64,000 bases of DNA from Shinisaurus crocodilurus (lineage: Eukaryota; Chordata; Lepidosauria; Squamata; Shinisauridae), in the NCBI GenBank assembly GCA_021292165.1, contig CM037878.1, positions 255,365,921 to 255,429,920 of the forward strand. Reading direction: 5' to 3'. Position numbers and translations under genes: made by a program. Shown here one piece after another: positions 748-62,669 of the stretch (positions are counted from its first letter, which is position 1; each line of letters opens with the position of its first letter). The notes beneath the pieces were generated by a model, which saw only the letters and a program-made list of their open reading frames with translations, was not told where the DNA came from and did no database searches.

Positions 748-828
748 CTGTGGCTTACGCTGGCTCAACTTGTCTGAGTGTGGAAAGCTAAGCAGGGTCA
801 AGCCTGGTCATTACTTGGATGGGAGACC
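748..828 (+). mobile_element. 5S rRNA-derived SINE fragment
   Basis: The stretch reads like the internal part of 5S rRNA: GGAAAGCTAAGCAGGGTC, then ACTTGGATGGGAGACC, which is the 5S internal promoter (box A / box C) region. It is diverged and only about 80 bp long. No 5S 3' end follows, because CR1 sequence starts right after it. This fits a truncated SINE3-type element better than a 5S gene. Confidence 0.7.
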
Positions 829-837
829 CCTCCTCTA

Positions 838-907
838 GTTTCCTGCATTGAGCAGGGGGTTGGACTCCATGGTCTTGTAGGCTCCTTCCAACTCTGTGAT
901 CTATGAA
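838..907 (+). mobile_element. CR1 LINE 3'-end fragment
   Basis: TGCATTGAGCAGGGGGTTGGACTCCATGG...CCTTCCAACTCTGTGATCTATGA is the conserved end of CR1. It closely matches the end of the near-complete copy at 31230-31322. It is 5'-truncated to about 70 bp. Confidence 0.85.
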
Positions 908-3169
908 ATCCCACCTACGACAAATACTTCACACAACATATGGGGTTGCTGGTCTCTCCGAGTGTGGACTGTTTCCCGGGGGCTTCTCAACAACTAAAGG
1001 GGGAAAGAAGGGACCTTGACTTGAACCTCTGGGCTAGCTCTTCACCTCCTAGGAGACCGGTGGTGAACAGAAGCATCCTGATCCTGAATCCTATCCAGCA
1101 TGCAGAAACAGCTTCCTTCTTTTTACAGTCATGTAAAAGGGGAGTCCAGAACTGTCTGGAAACCATCTCTGGCACTCTGGAAGTGGGAAGGTGCACTAGA
1201 GATGGTGTAAAATTCACAGCTCTCTCAGTCAACGGTGTTCATTTGTTCCCTCTCTCAGCTCCCACAACCCCTCCCACACTTTTCAGTCTGAAATAACTGG
1301 ACTTGTAATGGTCAGGCTCAGAGACTCCCGAGCCCTCTCCCAGTTTCCCAGTGATCTGGGATATCCAAATGGTTAGCTTTTGGATTGCCTGGGGGTGGGG
1401 GGCTGATCCACTCAAGTACCCAGCTAAAGTAGTTTCAGGAGATTGCCAAAATGAAGCAGAACCACTTGTGCGAAAGAACAGCATAAAGTTTATCAATTAA
1501 ACAGTTGGAATACGGATGCAGAATATAAACAATTAATGCAAATGAAAGCTTACTCTACCCTTATCTGTGGTCACATTGGCTCCCAAAATGCATTGAAAGG
1601 GATGCTCCGGGGGCTGGAAGGCCTTTGGGCAAGCAATGCGTCAATTCCTCTTCCCAAAGTGGGAATCAAAAAACAAGGTAGCCTGCCATCAATCTTACTG
1701 TTTTCCCTCACCTCCGGTTCCAGTTGCTGTTGGTGAAATGCTGGCCAACCCCGATTCCTGAGAAACAGGAAGCAGCTTCAATCAAGAAGCAGCTTCAGTT
1801 CTCACAAGAAAACAGCCCTTACCTAAGGAATGTGGTTGAGGAGTGCAGCTGCAAAGGATTAATCTCAAGTGCTATTCCTAGCTGGTGCAAGCTTATGCTG
1901 TGCATAAAACTCTAGCAAAGCTACCAAAAAAAACCCACAACACCTTGCCTTTTGGGCACTGTGGAAGTTCACCACACTACCTGTCAAACGTTAAAAGCCT
2001 CCTCACCATTATTCTGGTATAGCCCCAAACATTACAGGTCTATATAGGCCAATAAAGAAGAGGAAAGCATGAAAAATTCCTCCATGTGGGTCCACACACA
2101 GAAAATCTGCTTTAGCTCATTTTACACCTCAGAGGCATAGAGCATGCTTAATAATTACAATAAATAATGCAAACCATAAGAAAATGAACTCTTACCAAGC
2201 CAGAATTGGCTGCTGCAGCAAAATCAGCAGCTATTTCCGTGTGCAGTTTCTTGTTGTGTGTATGTGTTGTTCCTTCTTGAGCAAGTGGGGATTTTAATTA
2301 GGGTTGCCTCCAAAATTCTTATCATCCTCATCATTTCTCCCTCGATTTTGGAGTTCCATATTACCTGGTCTTGTTTCTCCATGGCATTAGCAACGCCCCA
2401 GCATTCCTACAGGCATTCTCGCCTACCCCCAGGAGAAAACACAGCTAGGTTGGTAGGTTCAGGTGGATCTCGTGTCAGGTCCGTATGATCGCAAGGCTTT
2501 TGTTAGTTAAGAAACCAATTTAAAATACTCTTGGCCACATTGTAAAATTAAAATAAGCGAAACCCTGCTCCCAGCATGCCCCCTCCCCAAATCAGTGAAA
2601 TTTACCCATACCCCATTTCTATTTTCACACCTCCCTCATGTGTATTTCCTATCCCCAAATTGGCAGAAAATATCTCAGCGGTACTATGCTTCTTCTTTTA
2701 AATGTCCCATATAAATTTGCATAGTAATACAGTCTAACTACTTAATTAACACTCTATCACACATTGCAACTTTCTTTTCTCTACCTCCATGAAAATTTAA
2801 TGTATTCTTACAGATCCTTGGAATGCATACAACTCCGAGTGGCTGCACATGCCAAATGACCACACATGTACGTTTCTCATATACCAGATTACTCTCAACC
2901 CTGTCTGAGTGCCTGTGATTGGCATTTAGTCAATAAAGCTCACCAGCTTGACTTTTCCCCTAGGGTGAATTTGTGAGGCATCAAAAACCCCTATGTGTAG
3001 CACCTTAGCAGATTTTCTTGAAGAGGACTGCAGCTTTCAGTAGTTTACATGTCTTGGACTGGCATGGAAACTAGGGCTAGAACATTCCACAGAGAATTTG
3101 GGAAGCAGCAGTGCACTTGTGGAATACATGGTATGTGCCACAGGTATATATATACTGCCTTTATACAAG
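908..3169. other. Unassigned sequence, no gene seen
   Basis: AT-rich, apparently single-copy DNA. The reading frames (up to 118 codons) overlap on opposite strands and show no domain, signal peptide or splice context. No terminal inverted repeats or SINE boxes were recognised. Confidence 0.4.
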
Positions 3170-3872
3170 GTCTACTGCCTTTATACAAATCTATGGAGCA
3201 ACTACACTTGGAGTACCATGTATATTTCTGGCCTACTGCACCTCAGAAAGGATATTGTACAGCTGGTAAAGGTGCAAGAAAAGGCAACCAAACCGATCAG
3301 GGCTGGAGCAACTCCCTTATGGGGAAAGGTTACAATGTTTGGGGCTTTTTAGTTTAGCAAAAGGCAATTAAGAAGGGACATGACTGAGGAGTATAACATC
3401 ATGCATGGTGTAGAGAAAATGGATAGAAGTAAGTTCTTCTACATCTCTCATATAACACTAGAATCGGGTCATTCAATGAAGCGGAGTGTTGAGAGATTCA
3501 GGACAGATAGAATGAAGTATTTCTTCACACATCACATAGTTAAACTATGGAATTCACTGTTGCAAGTGATATCTACCGACTTGGATGGCTTTTAAAAGGA
3601 ATTAGAGAAATTCATAGAGGATAAGGCTACCAATAGCATTACTCATGATAGCTGTAGGCTATTACTCATGATGGCTATATATTTTCCCCACTATCAGAGG
3701 AGGTATGTTTCTGTGAACCAGCTGCTGGGAAACATGAACAGGAAGTTGCTATTGTACTCATAACCTGCTTCTGGGCTTCCCACAGGCATCTGGTTGGCTA
3801 CTGCAAGAACAGAATGTTGGACTAGATGGCCTTTGGTCTGTTTTGGCCAGCATGGCTCTTTTTATGTTCTTA
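3170..3872 (+). mobile_element. Decayed CR1/L3-like LINE 3' fragment
   Basis: Translated pieces in several frames resemble the end of CR1 ORF2 (a line beginning near WSNYTW, then KDIVQLVKVQEKATK, equivalent to KDVDKLKRVQRRATR in the CR1 at 30848). A typical 3' UTR follows, with GTTGGACTAGATGGCCTTTGGTCTG and a terminal TCTTTTTATGTTCTTAC. Many stops and frameshifts mark an old copy of a subfamily different from the young CR1 at 25.6-31.3 kb. Confidence 0.75.
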
Positions 3873-10892: not shown

Positions 10893-11517
10893 TAGGGATG
10901 TACAGATTTTGTTAATCCACTCCATCTGTGTTTTGTGGATTGTCAGTAGGGGTGTACCCGCTCGCCTCGAGGCAGGCGTAGCAGGCCGAAATCGGCCCCA
11001 CTCACGCCTGCCAGAGACTCGTGGGGCCTTACCGGGTCCGGGGCTCCCTCGACTCAGCTCGGCGGGCTCGAGTGGCGTGGAGAACTGCTCCGCGCCGTTC
11101 AGAAAATCAAGGCGGGGGGGCTGCCACCGTGGAGAGACGAGGCGGTGGTGAGGCGGGACCCCCTGAAGGTTTGTGAACACCACTAAAATTTGTCAGGCAT
11201 CCTCCATTTAGTCATCCGTTTATTGAAGGAAACATTTTTTTAAACCAGAATTTAGTTCTACCTGTGCTGATTTGCATTAGCGTTAATGTGCACTTGTGCA
11301 AATGAGCTAATGTGCATTAACTAATGTGGATTAGTGCATTTGCATGAGTGTGCACTTGTGCTAATGCACAAATCCCCCCTCCCAAATCTGAAAAAACTGG
11401 TCTGCAAGTCTGCAGAATCTGCTTGACTCAGAAAAAGCCAGTCTGTTGCAGAATCTGCAGGTTGGATTTATAGAAATCTGAACACATTTGAATCTGTTGC
11501 AGATTCTGACATCCCTA
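10893..11517 (+). mobile_element. ATTAGTGC-rich MITE-like element, copy 2
   Basis: Starts TAGGGATGTACAGATTTTG and ends CAGATTCTGACATCCCTA. The interior and ends match 8350-8990. It is interrupted by the GC-rich element at 10947-11188, so it is the older of the two. Confidence 0.65.
10947..11188 (+). mobile_element. GC-rich TAGGGGTGT element, copy 1
   Basis: A GC-rich island that starts TAGGGGTGTACCCG and ends GAACACCACTA (plus AAA), flanked by ATTGTCAG and TTTGTCAG (7 of 8 identical). It shares GGCTCGAG-GGCG-GGAGAAC-CTCCGCGCCG with 35754-36216. It lies inside the ATTAGTGC-rich element. Open frames here (96-100 codons) are GC artefacts. Confidence 0.6.
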
Positions 11518-28457: not shown

Positions 28458-28490
28458 ATGAATGCACCTTGTCCACTTCATCAGAAGGAT

Positions 28491-31316
28491 GCCCAGAGTA
28501 TGGGCAACAAACAAGACGAACTTGAACTCTTGATACATGAGGGCAAGTACGACTTGATAGGGATAACTGAAACCCAGTGGGATGACTCCCATGACTGGAT
28601 TACAGCAATTGAAGGGTATAACTTGTTCAAAAGGAACAAAAGCAACAGAAAGGGAGGTGGAGTTGTGCTGTATGTTAAAGATACGTATCTCTGCACAGAT
28701 ATACAGGAAGAGGAGCTTGGCAGCCCCATTGAGAGCATCTGGGTTAAAATAAAGGGGGCAAAGAATAAAATGAACATGGTGGTTGGAGTCTACTACCGAC
28801 CACCCAATCAAGGAGAAGACGAGGATGAAACTTTTGAAAAGCAAATTGCAATTGTTTCAAGGAGGCACGATGTGGTAGTAATGGGTGACTTCAATTTCCC
28901 TGATATCTGCTGGGAGACTTATTCAGCCAAACATGGCTCCTCCAAGAAATTCCTGAGTTGTGCTGCTGATAACTTCCTCCTACAGATAGTGGAGGAAGGA
29001 ACTAGAGGATCGGCTATCCTTGACCTGATTCTAACCAACAGAGACGAGTTAGTGGATAAAGTGGCAGTTTCGGGAACTCTGGGGGAAAGTGACCATGTTA
29101 TACTTGAGTTCTTGATTCTAAGGGGAGCAAAAGCGGAGTGTAGCCAAACACGTACCCTGGATTTTAGGAAAGCACATTTTAATAAGCTCAGAACAATGAT
29201 TAGTAAGATACCATGGCAAACGACTCTAATGAGAAAAGGAGCCCAGGATGGGTGGGAGTTTTTAAAAAAGGAAATTTTAAAAGCACAATTGCAAACAATT
29301 CCCACAAGGAAAAAAGGCAGAGGGCAACAGAAGAAGCCAATGTGGCTTCACAATAAACTCAAAGATGACCTGAAAACAAACAAGGACATGTATAGGAAGT
29401 GGAAGGAAGGACAGGCTACAAGGGAAGAGTACAGGCAGCAGGTAGCACAGAACTGCAGGAACAGTGTCAGGAAGGCTAAAGCTGAGAATGAGCTAAGGTT
29501 AGCGAGGGATGCTAAAAACAACAAGAAAGAAAGCTTTCTTCAGATACATGCACAGTAAAAGACAGAGGAAAGAAATGGTGGTTCAACTACTCAATGAGGA
29601 TGGCAAATTGATAACAGAAGACAAAGAAAAGGCAGAAGTGTTCAATTCCTACTTCGGCTCGGTCTTCTCCCAAAAGAGGGTCTATGACCCCCCTTGCAAA
29701 CCTGAAGTGCAGACTGAAGGGGCAGGATTGCAGCTTGAGATTGATAGGCAAATGGTCAAGGAGCACCTGATTACTCTGAACGAGTTTAAATCTCCAGGGC
29801 CTGATGAGCTGCATCCTAGAGTAATAAAGGAACTGGCAGAAGAACTCTCAGAACCACTGTCTATTATCTTTGAGAAATCATGGAGGACAGGTGAAATGCC
29901 AGATGACTGGAGGAGGGCAAATGTTGTTCCCATCTTCAAAAAGGGCAAGAAGGAAGAACCTGGGAACTATAGGCCAGTCAGTCTGACATCAATCCCTGGG
30001 AAATTTTTGGAGCAGCTTATAAGGAAGTCAGTCTGCAAGCACCTTGAAAACAATGCAGTGATTACTAGAAGCCAGCATGGATTCGTCAAGAACAAATCCT
30101 GCCAGACTAATCTGATCTCATTTTTTGATCGGGTAACCTCCCTTGTGGACTGTGGGAATGCGGTGGACATAATATATCTGGACTTCAACAAAGCTTTCGA
30201 CAAAGTGCCTCGTGATATCCTGATTAGCAAGCTAGCTAAAAGTGGGCTAGATGGAACAACTATCAGGTGGATCCACAATTGGCTACAGAATCGGACTCAA
30301 AGAGTGCTTATCAATGGTTCTTTCTCAAACTGGGGAGAGGTAATGAGCGGGGTACCACAGGGCTCGGTCCTGGGCCCAGTGCTCTTCAACATTTTTATTA
30401 ATGACTTGGATCAGGAGATACAGGGAATGCTTATCAAATTTGCAGATGACACAAAGTTGGGTGGAACAGCTAATACTCTGGAAGACAGAAACAAAATTCA
30501 AAGTGACCTCGATAGGCTGGAGCACTGGGCCGAGAACAACAGAATGAAATTTAATAGGGATAAATGCCAAGTGCTGCACCTAGGGAGAGGAAACCAAATG
30601 CAGAGTTACAGAATGGGGGACACTTGGCTCAACAATACTACAAGTGAGAAGGATCTTGGAATTGTGGTAGATCACAAACTGAATATGAGCCAGCAATGCG
30701 ATGTGGCTGCAAAGAAGGCAAATGCTATTTTGGGCTGCATTAATAGAAGCATAACTTCCAAATCGTGGGAAGTGATAATTCCCCTTTACTCGGCACTGGT
30801 TAGGCCTCATCTTGAGTACTGCGTCCAGTTCTGGGCACCTCACTTTAAGAAGGACGTAGACAAACTGAAGAGGGTTCAGAGGAGGGCAACAAGGATGATA
30901 AAGGGACTGGAAACAAGGCCCTATGAGGAGAGACTGAAAGAACTGGGCATGTTTAGCCTTCAGAAGAGGAGACTGAGGGGAGATATGATCGCACTCTTCC
31001 AGTACTTGAAGGGAGGAGAGGAGGGCCAGGATCTCTTCTCGATCATCCCAGTTTGCAGTGACGGAATAATGGGCTCAAGTTACAGGAACCTAGATTCCAC
31101 CTAAACATCAGGAAAAATTTCCTGACTGTCAGAGCATTAAGACAATGGAATCAACTACCTAGGGAGGTGGTGGGCTCTCCCACTCTGGAGGCATTCAAGG
31201 TGCAGCTGGACAGACATCTGTCAGAATGCTTTGACCTGGATTCCTGCATTGAGCAGGGGGTTGGACTCGATGGCCTTGTAGGCCCCTTCCAACTCTACTT
31301 TTCTTTGATTCTATGA
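28491..31316 (+). pseudogene. CR1 ORF2 endonuclease-reverse transcriptase, two frameshifts
   Basis: Start taken at ATG 28500 (MGNKQDELELL). The APE-type endonuclease occupies the first 220 residues, with GITET, YYRPP, MGDFNFPD and GESDHV motifs. The reverse transcriptase follows: KSPGPDELHP, NYRPVSLTS, QHGFVKNKSC, YLDFNKAFDKVP, GVPQGSVLGPVLF, and the catalytic FADD at about 30440-30451. All key residues of both enzymes are present. A one-base frameshift lies in the AAGAAAGAAAGC run near 29525-29540 and a second near 31065-31075. The correct stop is TGA 31314-31316, inside the terminal CTATGATTCTAT repeat, as usual for CR1. The function is target-primed reverse transcription. Confidence 0.95.
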
Positions 31317-34913: not shown

Positions 34914-35585
34914 TCCCTCCAAAGGAAAGGTCCCCCGGGACTACATAATGGAATCCCAGCTCCCCCAGGATTACACAATGAAATCCCAGCTCCCCCAGGA
35001 CTACCTGCTCCTCCGGAACTGCACAATGAAATCCCTGCTTCCCCCCACCCAGGACTACACAATGAAATCCCTGCTCCCCCCCTGGCCTACGCAATGAAAT
35101 CCCTGTTCCCTTTCCCCCAGGACTACACAATGAAATCCCTGCTCCCCCCCCCACCGGGACCACACAATGAAATCCCAGCTCCCCCCCGGGACTACACAGC
35201 AATGAAATCCCTGCTCCCCCGGGACCACACAGCAATGAAATCCCTGCTCCCCCCTCTGGGACCACACAATGAAATCCCAGTGTCGCCCCCCCCCCCCAGT
35301 ACTACACAGTGGAATCCCAGCTCCCCCCGGGACTTCACAATGAAATTCCTGCTCCCCGCCCCGGGCAGGACCACACGATGAAATCCCAGCTCCTCCCCCC
35401 AGGACTGCACAACAATGACATCCCTGCTCCCCTGGGATCACACAACATTGAATTCCCTGCTCCCCCCAGGGACTACCCAATGAAATCCCTGTTCCCCCTC
35501 CCCCTTGGGACTACACAACAATGAAATCCCTGTTCCCCCTCCCCCTCGGGACTACACAACAATGAAATTCCAGCTCCCTCCCCCC
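34914..35585. repeat. Minisatellite inside the Helitron
   Basis: About 17 imperfect tandem units of 30-45 bp, core GACTACACAATGAAATCC followed by a variable (A/T)GCTCCCCC stretch. It is unlike a CRISPR: the spacers are homopolymer-rich length variants, not unique sequences. The long glycine/phenylalanine/histidine-rich minus-strand frames here simply translate the repeat. Confidence 0.92.
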
Positions 35586-35753
35586 ATGTAGGCCCCAGCT
35601 ACAGTTCATATGAACATTCTGTTTTCACGTAGGAGAAATTTGCATATCCTCTCCTGATTGGGCCCCTGTGGTGGCAGTTCATACGAACATTCTATTTTGA
35701 CGTAGGACCAATTTGCATAACCGCTCCTGAATGGCCCCTGTGAACATTCCAAG

Positions 35754-36216
35754 TAGGGGTGTCCGAGTAGCCTGGCAGACACAAGTGAGGCCCGAACTGG
35801 GCCTGCTTGTGTCCGCGTGGGCTCTTTGCCACCCCCGCAGGCTTTACCTGGGCTCTCCGCGGAGCGGAGAGCCTTCCTTGCCTGTCCGATGGGTCCCGTT
35901 GCATCACTTCTGGCGCGGAGGAAGTGACGTGACGGAACCCTGCTCCGTCGCGCTGGACCCCCGCGCTCTGTTTTTGGCAGGTGAAACCAGGGCAACAGTG
36001 GCTCTGGTGGTGGCGGTGGCGCGCAGGCAGCGGCGGGGGGCAGGGGGGGGTCTGGTGGCGGCGTGCGTGCGTGCGTGGGGGTTTCTCTGGCGGCGGCTCG
36101 AGCGGCGCGGAGAACACTCCGCGCCGCTCTGAAGAGCGAGATCGGTCCACCACCGCTCGCGGAGGGCTGAGCCCAGAGCGAGCCTCCACCCGACTCCAGG
36201 CTCGGCCCCACCACTA
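35754..36216. mobile_element. GC-rich TAGGGGTGT element, copy 2
   Basis: Starts TAGGGGTGTCCGAG and ends GGCCCCACCACTA, imperfect inverted ends. It is a CpG-rich island of 463 bp inside the Helitron. Shares GGCTCGAGCGGCGCGGAGAAC-CTCCGCGCCG-type sequence with 10947-11188. Frames of 133-206 codons across it overlap on both strands and show no domain. Confidence 0.6.
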
Positions 36217-36436
36217 ATGATGCCATTGGCTCTCATCTATTTTGGGCCATACAGACGCAGCGAGGGTTTTTTGGAGATTTGAACCTGTCAGTCTTTGTCC
36301 TCGGGTGATGGAGAGTATGCGTGCAGCGTGCCAAGTTTGGGGCGGATCCGTCCAACCGTGTAGGAGCCTATGCGACACATGCGTACCGTACACAGCCGGC
36401 CGGCCACAGACAAACTTTCACATTTATATAGTAAGA

Positions 36437-44146: not shown

Positions 44147-45071
44147 AATGGTTATGTGCCTGTTGACTAAGCTCTTTACAAATTTAGAGGAGGTTGCTAA
44201 GGCCAATGAAAGTCCTTTCATATGTTTCTTTTTAAAAATATAATATGCGAAAAATAAGATAGGTTTAATGGAATCAACATTTTAGATATCAAATATGCTG
44301 GCCACAATCCAGAGCCTCATTTTAACAGGCACAATGCAGGAGCTTTATGGGAATTATCCCCTGCCATCGTATCACATATTACCTTTGAAAGTATCTCAAA
44401 TTACAAATACAGTTTGCTGCACCTTGGGATGGATAAATCTGTCAGTATCGCTTTCTCCCACATTCTATTCATGTCCTATTCATGAAGAAATTTGTGAATT
44501 TTGGTAAATTCTTGTAAAAAAATGAACTAGAAAAAAACATCTCACTCATCTGCACCAGCCAAATTCCATAGGTGGAGCTATTCCAATTCCAAGCATGGAG
44601 AAGACCATGATTTATCTACCTGCCATGTAGCTGTTAATAAGGACGAGCCTGTCAGAAAAAAGTGGTGGCATCCCTAAGTAAGCACTAAGATAGCTGAATA
44701 CACAGGGATTCAAATCCAAATTTTAAAATCAGATCCCTGGACCTGCATAGATAAATATGTCAGTTTGGCTTTCTCCTGCATTCAATTCCCCCCCCCCCAA
44801 CTCTCAAGTTCATTTCTTTCCATCTCATTTAAAGAAATGTGTGAATTTTGCTAATTTCTTATAAACACACACAACCGAATTCTCACCCATTCCTATGTAC
44901 AGGCAAATTGATCTTTGAAAAATACAAACGTCTATCTCCCACTCTCACCAGCTGAGTTGCAAGTTACTTCTCAGATTCTCTGCTTTGGTTCTCTTTCATA
45001 CCTATGCAGGGGCGGATTAAGAGCATTATGGGCCTGGTGCTGAGGATTTTGGTGAGCCTTTTTATGGAAAT
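44147..45071 (+). repeat. 925-bp tandem duplication, copy 1
   Basis: Runs from AATGGTTATGTGCC to GCCTTTTTATGGAAAT and is followed directly by copy 2. By eye the copies differ only by one C in a C11/C12 run and one A in a short A run. The unit contains the AATCTGTCAGTTT repeat (44424-44908) and, at its right end, the first 65 bp of the ACTR10-carrying hAT with its target duplication (44999-45006). Confidence 0.97.
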
Positions 45072-45998
45072 AATGGTTATGTGCCTGTTGACTAAGCTCT
45101 TTACAAATTTAGAGGAGGTTGCTAAGGCCAATGAAAGTCCTTTCATATGTTTCTTTTTAAAAATATAATATGCGAAAAATAAGATAGGTTTAATGGAATC
45201 AACATTTTAGATATCAAATATGCTGGCCACAATCCAGAGCCTCATTTTAACAGGCACAATGCAGGAGCTTTATGGGAATTATCCCCTGCCATCGTATCAC
45301 ATATTACCTTTGAAAGTATCTCAAATTACAAATACAGTTTGCTGCACCTTGGGATGGATAAATCTGTCAGTATCGCTTTCTCCCACATTCTATTCATGTC
45401 CTATTCATGAAGAAATTTGTGAATTTTGGTAAATTCTTGTAAAAAAATGAACTAGAAAAAAACATCTCACTCATCTGCACCAGCCAAATTCCATAGGTGG
45501 AGCTATTCCAATTCCAAGCATGGAGAAGACCATGATTTATCTACCTGCCATGTAGCTGTTAATAAGGACGAGCCTGTCAGAAAAAAGTGGTGGCATCCCT
45601 AAGTAAGCACTAAGATAGCTGAATACACAGGGATTCAAATCCAAATTTTAAAATCAGATCCCTGGACCTGCATAGATAAATATGTCAGTTTGGCTTTCTC
45701 CTGCATTCAATTCCCCCCCCCCCCAACTCTCAAGTTCATTTCTTTCCATCTCATTTAAAGAAATGTGTGAATTTTGCTAATTTCTTATAAAACACACACA
45801 ACCGAATTCTCACCCATTCCTATGTACAGGCAAATTGATCTTTGAAAAATACAAACGTCTATCTCCCACTCTCACCAGCTGAGTTGCAAGTTACTTCTCA
45901 GATTCTCTGCTTTGGTTCTCTTTCATACCTATGCAGGGGCGGATTAAGAGCATTATGGGCCTGGTGCTGAGGATTTTGGTGAGCCTTTTTATGGAAAT
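45072..45998 (+). repeat. 925-bp tandem duplication, copy 2
   Basis: Near-identical to copy 1. Its right end runs on into the intact hAT at 45934-46989, so this is the parent arrangement and copy 1 ends in a truncated hAT. The order is therefore hAT insertion first, duplication later. Confidence 0.97.
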
Positions 45999-46310
45999 AA
46001 ATAAAATGAAGACGCAATTTTATATTAAAACAAATTAAATATTTTAATTACCATTAAAGTGCCAAAACAGAAACATATTGAAAATATGGAGAGAATAGGA
46101 GAGAATAGGTGGGGGGTGGAGGAAAAGAGTGAGGGAATGAAAGGCGGTGTGATGCCGCCTTGGGCGTTATATATACTTGGGATTTTAAAAGATAAATGGA
46201 ACAAATAATAAACAAAGAAAGGGGGGTGGGAAAGCAGCCACACCGCCTCGGGAACCCAGCAGGGTGGGGCTGAGGGGCGGCAACCGAGGACTGGGAGGGG
46301 AGGCCTCTTA

Positions 46311-46565
<255 letters not shown>

Positions 46566-46630
46566 CTGGCCCCAGGGATTATTTTGCAGGAATAAATGGC
46601 TGTTTTTTAAAGACCCTATTGATTTTTAGT

Positions 46631-46711
46631 ATGCGTTTTATTATTGTATGCTGCCTTGAGGGTTCCTGCCCTCAAAGGCGGGCAGGAAATATAATTGATT
46701 AATTAATTAAT
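46631..46711 (+). mobile_element. SINE/L2-type tail inside the hAT
   Basis: TATGCTGCCTTGAGGGTTCCTGCCC, AAAGGCGGGCAGGAAATATAA and TTGATTAATTAATTAA resemble the shared 3' tail of the window's SINEs. Confidence 0.55.
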
Positions 46712-47480
46712 AGAATAGGGCTCCCCACAGTTACCCTAATTTCTTGCAGCACATCTCGGCGGGGAGGGGTACACGCTCGTAGCAGGCATTGTGTGCGTGT
46801 GTGTATCTAGTGAAAATTTGGCTGCTTCCCGTGCACTTCCTCCAGTCCCTGCCCAGCGTGGCAACCTCTGCTCGCCTCCGGCAACGCCCCGCAGGTGAGC
46901 GAGGTGAGCGCATCCCTATATTGTGGGCCTATTTTGTGGTAGGGGCCTGGAGCTGCAGCTCCAATAGCCCCTATCTTAATCCGTCCCTGTACCTATGGTT
47001 GGTTATGACCACAGATAGGTGGCGACAATGGTAACATGGCTACATATGATATCATCACAATGTTTCTGTGAAGCTGGCTGCTATGGGTCTGCAAAGGTAG
47101 TGATCGTTCTGAAGTATGCAACTTAAGGCTTAGGCCTGGGAATAGTGTGGCTTATGACAATACAAGAAAGGACAATAAATGCAGAGACTGGTGTTTCTGT
47201 GAATGTTCCTGCCAAATTCTGGATCTGTCTAAATGGCCAATAGGATGGGGTAAATGAATTCAAATATTACAGATGTGGCTGAAAAATCCACATCACATAG
47301 TGGAGGCACCACAATGCAGCCATAATTTCTGCAGTTGGATTTCCAATTAGATTGCACCATGTGACAAATATCTATGTTCATAGATGGTTGCATCATGTGA
47401 AAAATATCCATCTATCCACGGTGCTACCAACTGGTATTTGCATGGGGTTAAGCCTACCCATGGGAGAATTCAATTACAGA

Positions 47481-60534: not shown

Positions 60535-61279
60535 TAGGGGTGGTGATCCGCCCACCACTTCACTCGCAGCGTGCGAGCCAAGCCAAAAGCAAGCACAGGC
60601 TGAGGCGCTCACCGGACTTCCAGGTTCCTGGCACTACAGTGGCGTAGCGTGGGTTGTCAGCACCCGGGGCAAGGCAAGTAATTTGCGCCCCCTAACCCGT
60701 GGATTTTAGCACTCGAGTCTCTTCCACTAGATTAGTTAAAGAAACCCTTACCCCCTAAGCACATGTATTGTTTGTTATGAAAATACTGATGTAATTAAAG
60801 TAAAATGCATCTAAATACAAGTTTATTTTCAAACACTTTATTGAGTGCGAACATGCATTACACATTCTCCACATTTTCAGCAGGTCTATGAATACAAATC
60901 TACAAATGTAGTAACCTAGCATGGGCCATGCTATTATATGTCATCTCACAACCATCGTAAATGACAAAAAATATCAAGAACAAAAACTAAACATCAAAAT
61001 GGAACCATACCCTGGAGATGATCCAAGACTGGGCTAGATGGAGCCAACTTCCTCAATCCTGTACCTCTAATTGTAATTCTTTAATAGAAGTGCAAGATAT
61101 CAATCTGTATATAATATACAGATTAATTTAAATTCGGGGAGGTCACACAGAGGTCTAGAAAGAGGGAGAAGCAATAAGGGAGACTCCCCAAGACGAGGAG
61201 GAGGAGGAGGAGGAGAAGAAGAAGAAGACACACCCCGCGCTGCTCTGCTCGGGCCTCCTCCCGCTTTCCACCTGTCCCT

Positions 61280-62087
61280 TCAACTCAACTTCCTGCCTCC
61301 TCCATTTCTTCATTCATCCGTCCCCCCCCGATCCCATTTCCCCACACGCCCCTTTCCCTTCTTTTTCTAGCCCATTTCCTTTCTCCCTCCTCCTTTCCTG
61401 GCTTTTTAAAAATGTACCTCTTCTTTCTTTCCCCTCCTCTTTCCTTTCTCCCCCCCTTTTCTCCCCCTCCTCCCTTCACCCTCCCACCCTCTCCCATTTC
61501 TCTCTCTCCTCCTTTTCTCTCGCCATCCTTTTTCCCTTTCCTCTTTTCTCCTTTCCCCCATTTTCCTTTCTCTCTCCTTTGCTGTTCTCTGCTTTGTCCT
61601 TCCTTTTTCTCTCTCTCTTTCTCTTTCTTCTTCCTTCCTTCCTTCCTTCTTTCTCTCCTTTCCCCGGTCACTCTTTTTCCTCTCCTTCCTCATCTTCCTT
61701 TCCTTCCTTTTCTCGTCTCCCCAACTTTCTTTACCCCTTTCTCATTCCCCATCTTTCCTCTTTCCCTTCATTCTCTCTCTCTCTTTCCTCCCTTCCTCTT
61801 TCTTTTCCTTTCTTTCTCTCTTCCTCCCTCCCCCTTCTCCTTCCTTTCCTTCCTTCTTTCTCTCTCTCTTTTCCTCCCTCTTTCTCTCTCTCTCTCTCTC
61901 TCTTTTCCTCCCTTCCTCTTTCTTTTCCTTTCTTTCTCTCTTCCTCCCTCCCCCTTCTCCTTCCTTCCTTCCCTTCTTTCTCTCTCTCCTCTCTTTTCCT
62001 CCCTCCCTCCCCTTTTCTCTCTCTCTCTCTCTTCTCCTCCCTTTCTTTCTTCCTTCCTTCCTCTCTCTCCTCGCTCTCCCTCCATAC
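61280..62087 (-). repeat. Polypurine/polypyrimidine tract, captured intron
   Basis: Almost pure C/T on the plus strand (TTCCT, CTCTTT words with internal duplications of about 120 bp at 61780-61985). It starts at the exon's splice donor, so it was most likely captured as the beginning of intron 1 and then expanded. The 386-codon serine/proline/phenylalanine-rich frame here is low-complexity, not a gene. Such tracts can form triplex DNA. Confidence 0.75.
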
Positions 62088-62219
62088 CTCGATCTTGTCC
62101 ACGCTCTGGGCGCAGCCCACCACCTTCATGCCGCGCTGCACCAGGGCGCGGGCCACGGCCGCCCCGATGCCCACCGAGGCGCCGGTCACCAGCGCCATGC
62201 GCCCCTTCCAGCGCTCCAT
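62088..62219 (-). pseudogene. DHRS11: Captured first exon of a DHRS11-like dehydrogenase
   Basis: From ATG 62219 (context GGGCCATGG) 44 codons read MERWKGRMALVTGASVGIGA, continuing AVARALVQRGMKVVGC and ending DKIE. This matches residues 6-49 of vertebrate DHRS11, a cytosolic short-chain dehydrogenase/reductase, including the NAD(P)-binding TGxxxGxG motif. The five N-terminal residues of the human protein are absent. The exon ends GAG followed by GTATGG, a plausible splice donor in phase 0, at the same place where the conserved first block of DHRS11 ends. The catalytic YxxxK part is missing and no later exons occur. A close DHRS11 paralogue is an alternative parent. Confidence 0.92.
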
Positions 62220-62400
62220 GGCCCACGCGCCGCGCGCGGCTGCCCTCCGCCTGCCCGGCCCGCGACGCACCGGCCGGCACCTCTCCGAGGCGCACGACCC
62301 GGCAGGCGTGGCGGCGGCGGCAGCAGCAGCGAGGGGGGGGAGCAGGAGGAGGAAGAGCTGGGGCAGAGAGCTGCAAGTGCGAGCGCGCCCCCCCAGATGT
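62220..62400 (-). promoter_or_regulatory. Captured CpG-rich 5' region of DHRS11
   Basis: GC- and CpG-dense sequence upstream of the captured ATG, including the probable 5' UTR and proximal promoter. It has GGGGGG- and GCCGCCGCC-type blocks but no TATA box. The hAT terminus begins about 180 bp upstream of the ATG, so only the proximal promoter was carried. Confidence 0.6.
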
Positions 62401-62669
62401 TGCGGCCAGCCCCCCCTGCACCCCCCACGCTACGCCTCTGTGGCACTACGTTATGCAAGTTATGCAAATTGCGGCCAGTTTTAATGTATCTTATGCCATT
62501 TTCTACGTAAACAACGTAGCGCCGGAACCCAGAAGTCACTTCCCCAGCTCAGCTCGCATTCGCGCGAGCTGAGCTGGGTAAACTGGTAGGACGAGTGGAC
62601 CTTGGGAGGGTCAAGCCCGGCGAGTTCGCCGGACTTCCACCCCCTCATCAAGCTCTGCACACATCACTA

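Follow-up and report, generated by a model that had tools for sequence, protein, structure and literature searches.

A hAT element with the start of DHRS11

The window, by which we mean the whole stretch of 64,000 nucleotides from Shinisaurus crocodilurus that was analysed, holds at 60637-62440 a non-autonomous hAT transposon with matching ends, whose DHRS11-derived interior of about 1.2 kb comprises a CpG-island promoter, exon 1, a splice donor, and the start of intron 1. An earlier note, made from the letters of this DNA, had proposed a hAT holding the start of DHRS11 at this position, and the ends, the target site duplication (TSD), and the match of the exon to PDB entry 1xg5 bear this out. 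The window also contains a second hAT with a gene start. The parts of both are as follows.

45934-46989: ACTR10-carrying hAT, TSD TACCTATG, ends CAGGGGCGGATTAAGA
60629..60636, no strand assigned: left TSD TGGCACTA
60637..61134, minus strand: hAT tail, 498 bp, the same tail as in the autonomous copy described below
61135..62087, minus strand: captured start of DHRS11 intron 1, 953 bp, from the alignment to the donor gene (locus L031)
62088..62219, minus strand: captured coding part of DHRS11 exon 1, 44 codons from the ATG at 62219, phase 0
62220..62359, minus strand: captured DHRS11 upstream sequence and 5' UTR, CpG island, the upstream breakpoint near 62359 being approximate
62360..62440, minus strand: hAT head, 81 bp, with the TIR CAGAGGCGTAGCGTGG
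62441..62448, no strand assigned: right TSD TGGCACTA

The ends of the DHRS11 element, CAGTGGCGTAGCGTGG at 60637-60652 on the plus strand and CAGAGGCGTAGCGTGG at 62425-62440 on the minus strand, belong to an 18-nt terminal inverted repeat (TIR) with 94% complementarity and are the only two end matches in the window at up to 3 mismatches. Chance occurrence is ruled out, as 0.11 matches were expected and two or more arose in 1 of 100 shuffles of the window. Short TIRs starting with CAG characterize the hAT superfamily and are present here, as is the 8-bp TSD expected of a hAT, which flanks the window copy (TGGCACTA) and 39 of the 40 copies inspected elsewhere. Helitrons lack a TSD and have TC...CTRR ends, and the 8-bp TSD and hAT ends speak against membership in a Helibat-like Helitron family. 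The element further has the makeup of a Pack-TIR or Pack-TYPE transposon: it is without transposase, holds non-TE host DNA between its TIRs, has a parental copy of that DNA elsewhere, and is multicopy by transposition with distinct TSDs. Besides its TIR, the tail comprises the stop and final two codons of the transposase frame and the gene's 3' UTR, in which AATAAA/ATTAAA motifs occur. Compared with most other copies, the window copy is about 85 bp shorter near its head, in two places. An Rfam scan of the window gave no match above the gathering score. The CpG-rich flanks of the insertion (60537-60636 and 62449-62650) resemble one interrupted repeat with similar GGGGTGG... ends, and the element may have inserted within a further repeat; a short hairpin lies in the right flank at 62540-62581.

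On the minus strand, 62219-62088 translates as MERWKGRMALVTGASVGIGAAVARALVQRGMKVVGCAQSVDKIE and is followed by the splice donor GTATGG at 62087-62082 and then by intron 1 sequence with a polypurine tract, which stops at the junction CCCCG|AATTT. The best PDB match of the exon piece is 1xg5 (ARPG836), which we take to be human DHRS11, at residues 27-70 (E=1.3e-15), and the next is bacterial FabG (E=2.3e-7). A CpG island (200-bp windows, GC >= 0.6, o/e >= 0.65) extends over 62001-62450, and the start codon, splice donor, upstream CpG island, and beginning of intron 1 that the earlier note had described are all in place. It had also named DHRS11 exon 2 as the feature whose presence beyond the left terminus on the minus strand would speak against capture; a tblastn search of the window with a human DHRS11 query found no further DHRS11 exon, the next best match having E=1.1.

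The absence of any other DHRS11 locus was the second such feature named there, and an ordinary DHRS11 gene does exist: its exons 1-5 follow one another in order on the minus strand of contig C1107.

C1107 182127-182261, minus strand: donor exon 1
C1107 167237-167458, minus strand: donor exon 2
C1107 166432-166539, minus strand: donor exon 3
C1107 164696-164836, minus strand: donor exon 4
C1107 162780-162875, minus strand: donor exon 5

Donor exon 2 matches 1xg5 at residues 70-141 (E=2.8e-33), and exons 2-5 were found at C1107 alone among 150 scored matches, bar one SDR relative at 34%; past exon 5, the last ~35 residues of the human probe had no match. Aligning the element to the genome's own gene had been put forward as a check, and the alignment holds from about 210 bp upstream of the ATG (an approximate breakpoint) to the CCCCG|AATTT junction in intron 1, beyond which donor and element differ on both sides. 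The consensus of 32 family copies equals the donor across all 132 coding bases; upstream, six aligned bases differ, in addition to alignment gaps that include a triplet repeat. The window copy itself departs from the donor protein by V8M and R38Q. Around donor exon 1, no hAT ends were found at up to 4 mismatches in the 9.5 kb of L031, and one 4-mismatch match lies farther away, in L032.

The ACTR10 first exon (46388-46311) lies with a CpG island inside the second hAT, on the same strand as the DHRS11 exon, in agreement with the orientation claimed earlier, and the different ends of the two elements support the view that they are unrelated. The ACTR10 exon region occurs at 33 places including its own (33 of 33 candidates scored), the others comprising 28 at 96-98%, a split match at 97%, and three single places at 93%, 88%, and 86%; one of the 33 may be the ACTR10 gene itself. 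A tandem copy of the left part of this element starts at 45007. Elsewhere in the window there are CpG islands at 10901-11200 and at 35751-36300, the latter adjoining a short-repeat array at ~34940-35590, and two long overlapping open frames of 366 and 531 aa at 28458-31104, which we take to resemble the endonuclease and reverse transcriptase of a non-LTR retrotransposon.

Copies across the genome and their divergence

The search for other copies that the earlier note had recommended was made in the 2.19-Gb genome and was clearly positive. The protein search (best 150 of 257 candidates scored) located dispersed copies of exon 1 at no fewer than 144 places, the window's among them, the remaining 6 of the 150 matches being five donor exons and one SDR relative. 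By DNA search (best 40 of 1049 candidates), 39 places including the window's match the whole exon-promoter query besides the donor, one of them only over bases 1-373 of its 376 bases. Among 53 exon-selected loci examined (33 + 20), 40 had both ends and full flanks, and 39 of these 40 carry identical 8-bp TSDs of their own (23/23 and 16/17), all different from one another; the exception is L050, with unequal TSDs. Element lengths in the first 23 copies range from 1,272 to 1,945 bp.

All 32 rows compared have one and the same 5' junction, and 25 of the 30 loci selected by the tail agree in the 3' junction; junction microhomology for the DHRS11 cargo is 1-2 bases. These shared junctions indicate that the DHRS11 piece goes back to a single capture. 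The tree of 32 copies and the donor is comb-like, with no fork reaching the tool's mark for good support. Two DHRS11 elements on one contig, L013 and L022 (C7:51176883 and C7:51179030), are separated by ~2.1 kb and have identical 8-base sequences, CCTGGAGA, next to their heads; one insertion may have been duplicated locally. At L048, a complete DHRS11 element has another, oppositely oriented element end (2086-2235) ~100 bp away.

As the DHRS11 piece is a gene fragment, it might be asked whether it is an ordinary processed or segmental pseudogene that came to lie inside a repeat by chance. We give this explanation practically no credence. Promoter and intron sequence is present and exon 2 is absent, so the piece is not a retrocopy; moreover, it sits exactly between TIRs with TSDs, and this unit recurs, each time with its own TSD, in all but one of the 40 complete copies, which rules out segmental duplication as well.

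The hAT tail is almost invariant, with a median divergence from consensus of 0.4% in 23 copies and 0.2% in an overlapping set of 38 copies, and the burst therefore looks young. Within the DHRS11 family, divergence of the captured part exceeds that of the tail several-fold, with medians of 1.5-2.0% from consensus and 2.9% from the donor, and a simple burst leaves this excess unexplained. Non-CpG C/G transitions in cargo versus tail number 24/3009 versus 5/6327 in the 38-copy analysis and 18/5127 versus 3/3776 in the exon-selected analysis. The excess could stem from selection on the ends, from conversion involving autonomous copies, or from errors where the sequence is rich in GC.

A coding function of the exon piece is unsupported. 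The ATG has become ACG in 9 of 32 copies, through one shared change, and exon changes in these 32 copies are 29 nonsynonymous versus 1 synonymous (17 versus 1 counting each change once), a pattern without any trace of selection for the encoded protein piece. The GT splice donor is present in 32 of 32 exon-selected copies, a count that is partly built in because the pattern used to extract these copies was set around that site; in a tail-chosen set of 21 copies with >250 bases of exon region, the ATG is kept in 14 and the GT in 15. Protection of CpG sites in the cargo is likewise unsupported: CpG transitions in cargo versus tail amount to 62/2078 versus 12/684 in the 38-copy analysis, where the cargo is not lower, and to 75/3365 versus 19/450 in a set where the cargo is lower but the copies were chosen by exon similarity.

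A complete-looking partner and further cargos

At C2:185532212-185535907 we found a 3,696-bp copy with the same ends as the DHRS11 elements and the TSD GGAGGGAC on both sides, in which an 804-codon hAT transposase frame is open at element positions 791-3205. A Pfam scan covering the last 500 of the 804 residues identified Dimer_Tnp_hAT (E=3.8e-12, 46.3 bits versus a cut-off of 21.4), the C-terminal dimerisation domain expected in the transposase of a hAT partner with the same ends, and DUF4371 at 31 bits, slightly below its cut-off of 32.1. This copy thus appears to be a structurally complete, putatively autonomous element. A second autonomous-type copy, L065, is 99.5% identical over its last 1,994 bp, the stretch read, and a 161-bp query over the end of the frame matched at 100% in 40 of 40 scored places (best 40 of 371 candidates), so the autonomous-type sequence is also multicopy.

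The partner bears on the direction of transfer. The exon sequence sits in many transposon copies and in one gene, and the transposon might accordingly have donated exon 1 to DHRS11 by exonisation. However, exon 1 encodes the conserved opening part of the SDR fold (1xg5 residues 27-70), which donor exon 2 continues at residues 70-141, the donor gene is without hAT head and tail, and the autonomous element has transposase sequence in place of the cargo. We therefore consider a reverse origin highly improbable.

DHRS11 is one of at least four cargos carried by this hAT. With the tail as query, the best 40 of 1127 candidates were scored and all 40 were classified, 30 by inspection of the locus, 5 from 2-kb pieces, and 5 by position only (0.9-2.0 kb from an exon-1 place). 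On this basis, 33 are of DHRS11 type (25 + 3 + 5) and 2 of autonomous type, 3 have one cargo in common (L079, L089, L091), 1 carries GAS7 (L069), and 1 a further cargo (L080). L069 (467-1994) has the same ends, the TSD GACCAGAG, and a CpG-island cargo whose first exon, of 73 codons, matches the SH3 domain of GAS7 (PDB 2lx7, E=7.5e-31) and is followed by a GTGAGC splice donor. The common cargo of L079, L089 (382-2001), and L091 (380-2001) is a CpG island that is >=99% alike among them, and that of L080 is GC-rich and below the CpG-island thresholds.

The borders of these cargos are nearly fixed. The tail-side joins of the four cargos fall at autonomous positions 3129, ~3175, ~3180, and ~3197-3199, all within the final 77 nt of the transposase frame, and the five elements measured have 81-98 bp of head before the cargo. 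In the DHRS11 and GAS7 cargos the side with the gene start is turned to the head, by coding sense, and we infer from GC content that the same is true of the L079 and L080 types. Such borders may reflect a common deletion derivative that was refilled several times or the minimal ends that the transposase needs; the four cargo types have head variants in common that are absent from the one autonomous copy read, which favours the common derivative.

It is tempting to speculate that a CpG-island promoter is a favoured cargo, keeping the element open or transcribed, and that one hAT took up and amplified several such cargos for this reason. A GC-rich, gene-start-like side lies at the head in all four cargo types (DHRS11, GAS7, L079, and L080), and the ACTR10 exon 1 of the window's second hAT family occurs at 33 places, but CpG decay in the cargo is not below that in the tail, the L080 cargo fails the CpG-island thresholds, the four types come from the best 40 of 1127 tail candidates only, and open, GC-rich chromatin may simply be captured more readily. 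We regard this explanation as doubtful. The broader reading, in which one vertebrate hAT lineage serves as a shuttle for promoters and first exons, its bay with near-fixed borders (a head of 81-98 bp and, in the tail, breakpoints at 3129-3199 of the autonomous copy) being refilled with gene starts and the promoter making the cargo succeed, is offered as a tentative idea that we think rather unlikely. If true, such a shuttle, refilled in the sense of the transposase gene, would seed hundreds of CpG-island promoters with in-frame splice donors genome-wide.

Proposed origin and known systems

Our results lead us to conclude with high confidence that the window element belongs to a young family of non-autonomous Pack-hATs that captured the start of DHRS11 and was then mobilised. 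Capture of DHRS11 sequence by a hAT is established at the level of sequence comparison. A hAT would have lost its transposase region, and the break would have been filled by copying the host DHRS11 promoter, exon 1, and the start of intron 1, probably by gap repair or template switching. The chimera would have kept the head (81-98 bp) and the tail (~500 bp), presumably the parts that the transposase needs. Its spread to well over a hundred sites was most likely driven in trans by autonomous elements that share its ends.

The copies have a CpG island, 44 codons that in most copies still begin with the ATG, and a splice donor in phase 0 that points towards their own tail. With a predicted promoter, a start codon, and a splice donor, they could start chimeric transcripts if transcription reaches a downstream splice acceptor, and each copy could be a ready-made start for a new gene. 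One genome here unites the donor gene, a seemingly complete partner, many near-identical chimeras, and several cargos, which makes host-DNA capture by cut-and-paste transposons and a possible rewiring of genes by captured promoters directly testable.

Pack-hATs in animals and multicopy promoter-carrying Helitrons are already known, and to our knowledge dispersal of an animal promoter and first exon at such a scale has been described for bat Helitrons only. Helitrons are rolling-circle elements without TSDs, and the DHRS11 element differs from HelibatN3 in being a hAT, with 8-bp TSDs and hAT ends. In a literature search of titles and abstract openings, no DHRS11-carrying transposon was named, nor did we find a hAT with >100 promoter-bearing copies, several cargos, and a complete-looking partner.

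According to the sections of PMC4778049 considered here, HelibatN3 Helitrons of bats carry the NUBPL promoter and give rise to demonstrated chimeric transcripts, and the same sections cite the amplification of the promoters of 15 genes to 4,690 copies in Myotis lucifugus. The DHRS11 family resembles HelibatN3 in that a promoter has been multiplied across a genome together with a splice donor and a small number of N-terminal codons (PMC4778049, same sections). In plants, Pack-TYPE elements include maize Pack-hATs, and the main text of PMC8903248 describes maize hAT clusters of over one hundred elements and one hAT that provides a new splice donor. These elements are alike in having captured genic DNA in a hAT; they differ in being from plants, and the terms "promoter" and "first exon" are absent from that main text (PMC8903248).

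Closest are the animal Pack-TIRs of Tan et al. 2021 (PMC8277862), where, in the parts of the paper drawn on here, hAT elements account for 208 of 370 cases in 100 animal genomes, multicopy Pack-TIRs tend to capture GC-rich DNA, and capture of the repair and template-switch type is argued for. Multicopy cases from reference genomes number only 4 in the same parts, three of them in a frog and one in alligator, to which a fly family is added, and the examples given have 3-5 copies. Like these animal Pack-hATs, the DHRS11 element has host DNA between hAT TIRs, TSDs, and a parental copy elsewhere; unlike those described in these parts of PMC8277862, it combines one capture at >=144 places with several cargos per hAT and a partner that appears structurally complete.
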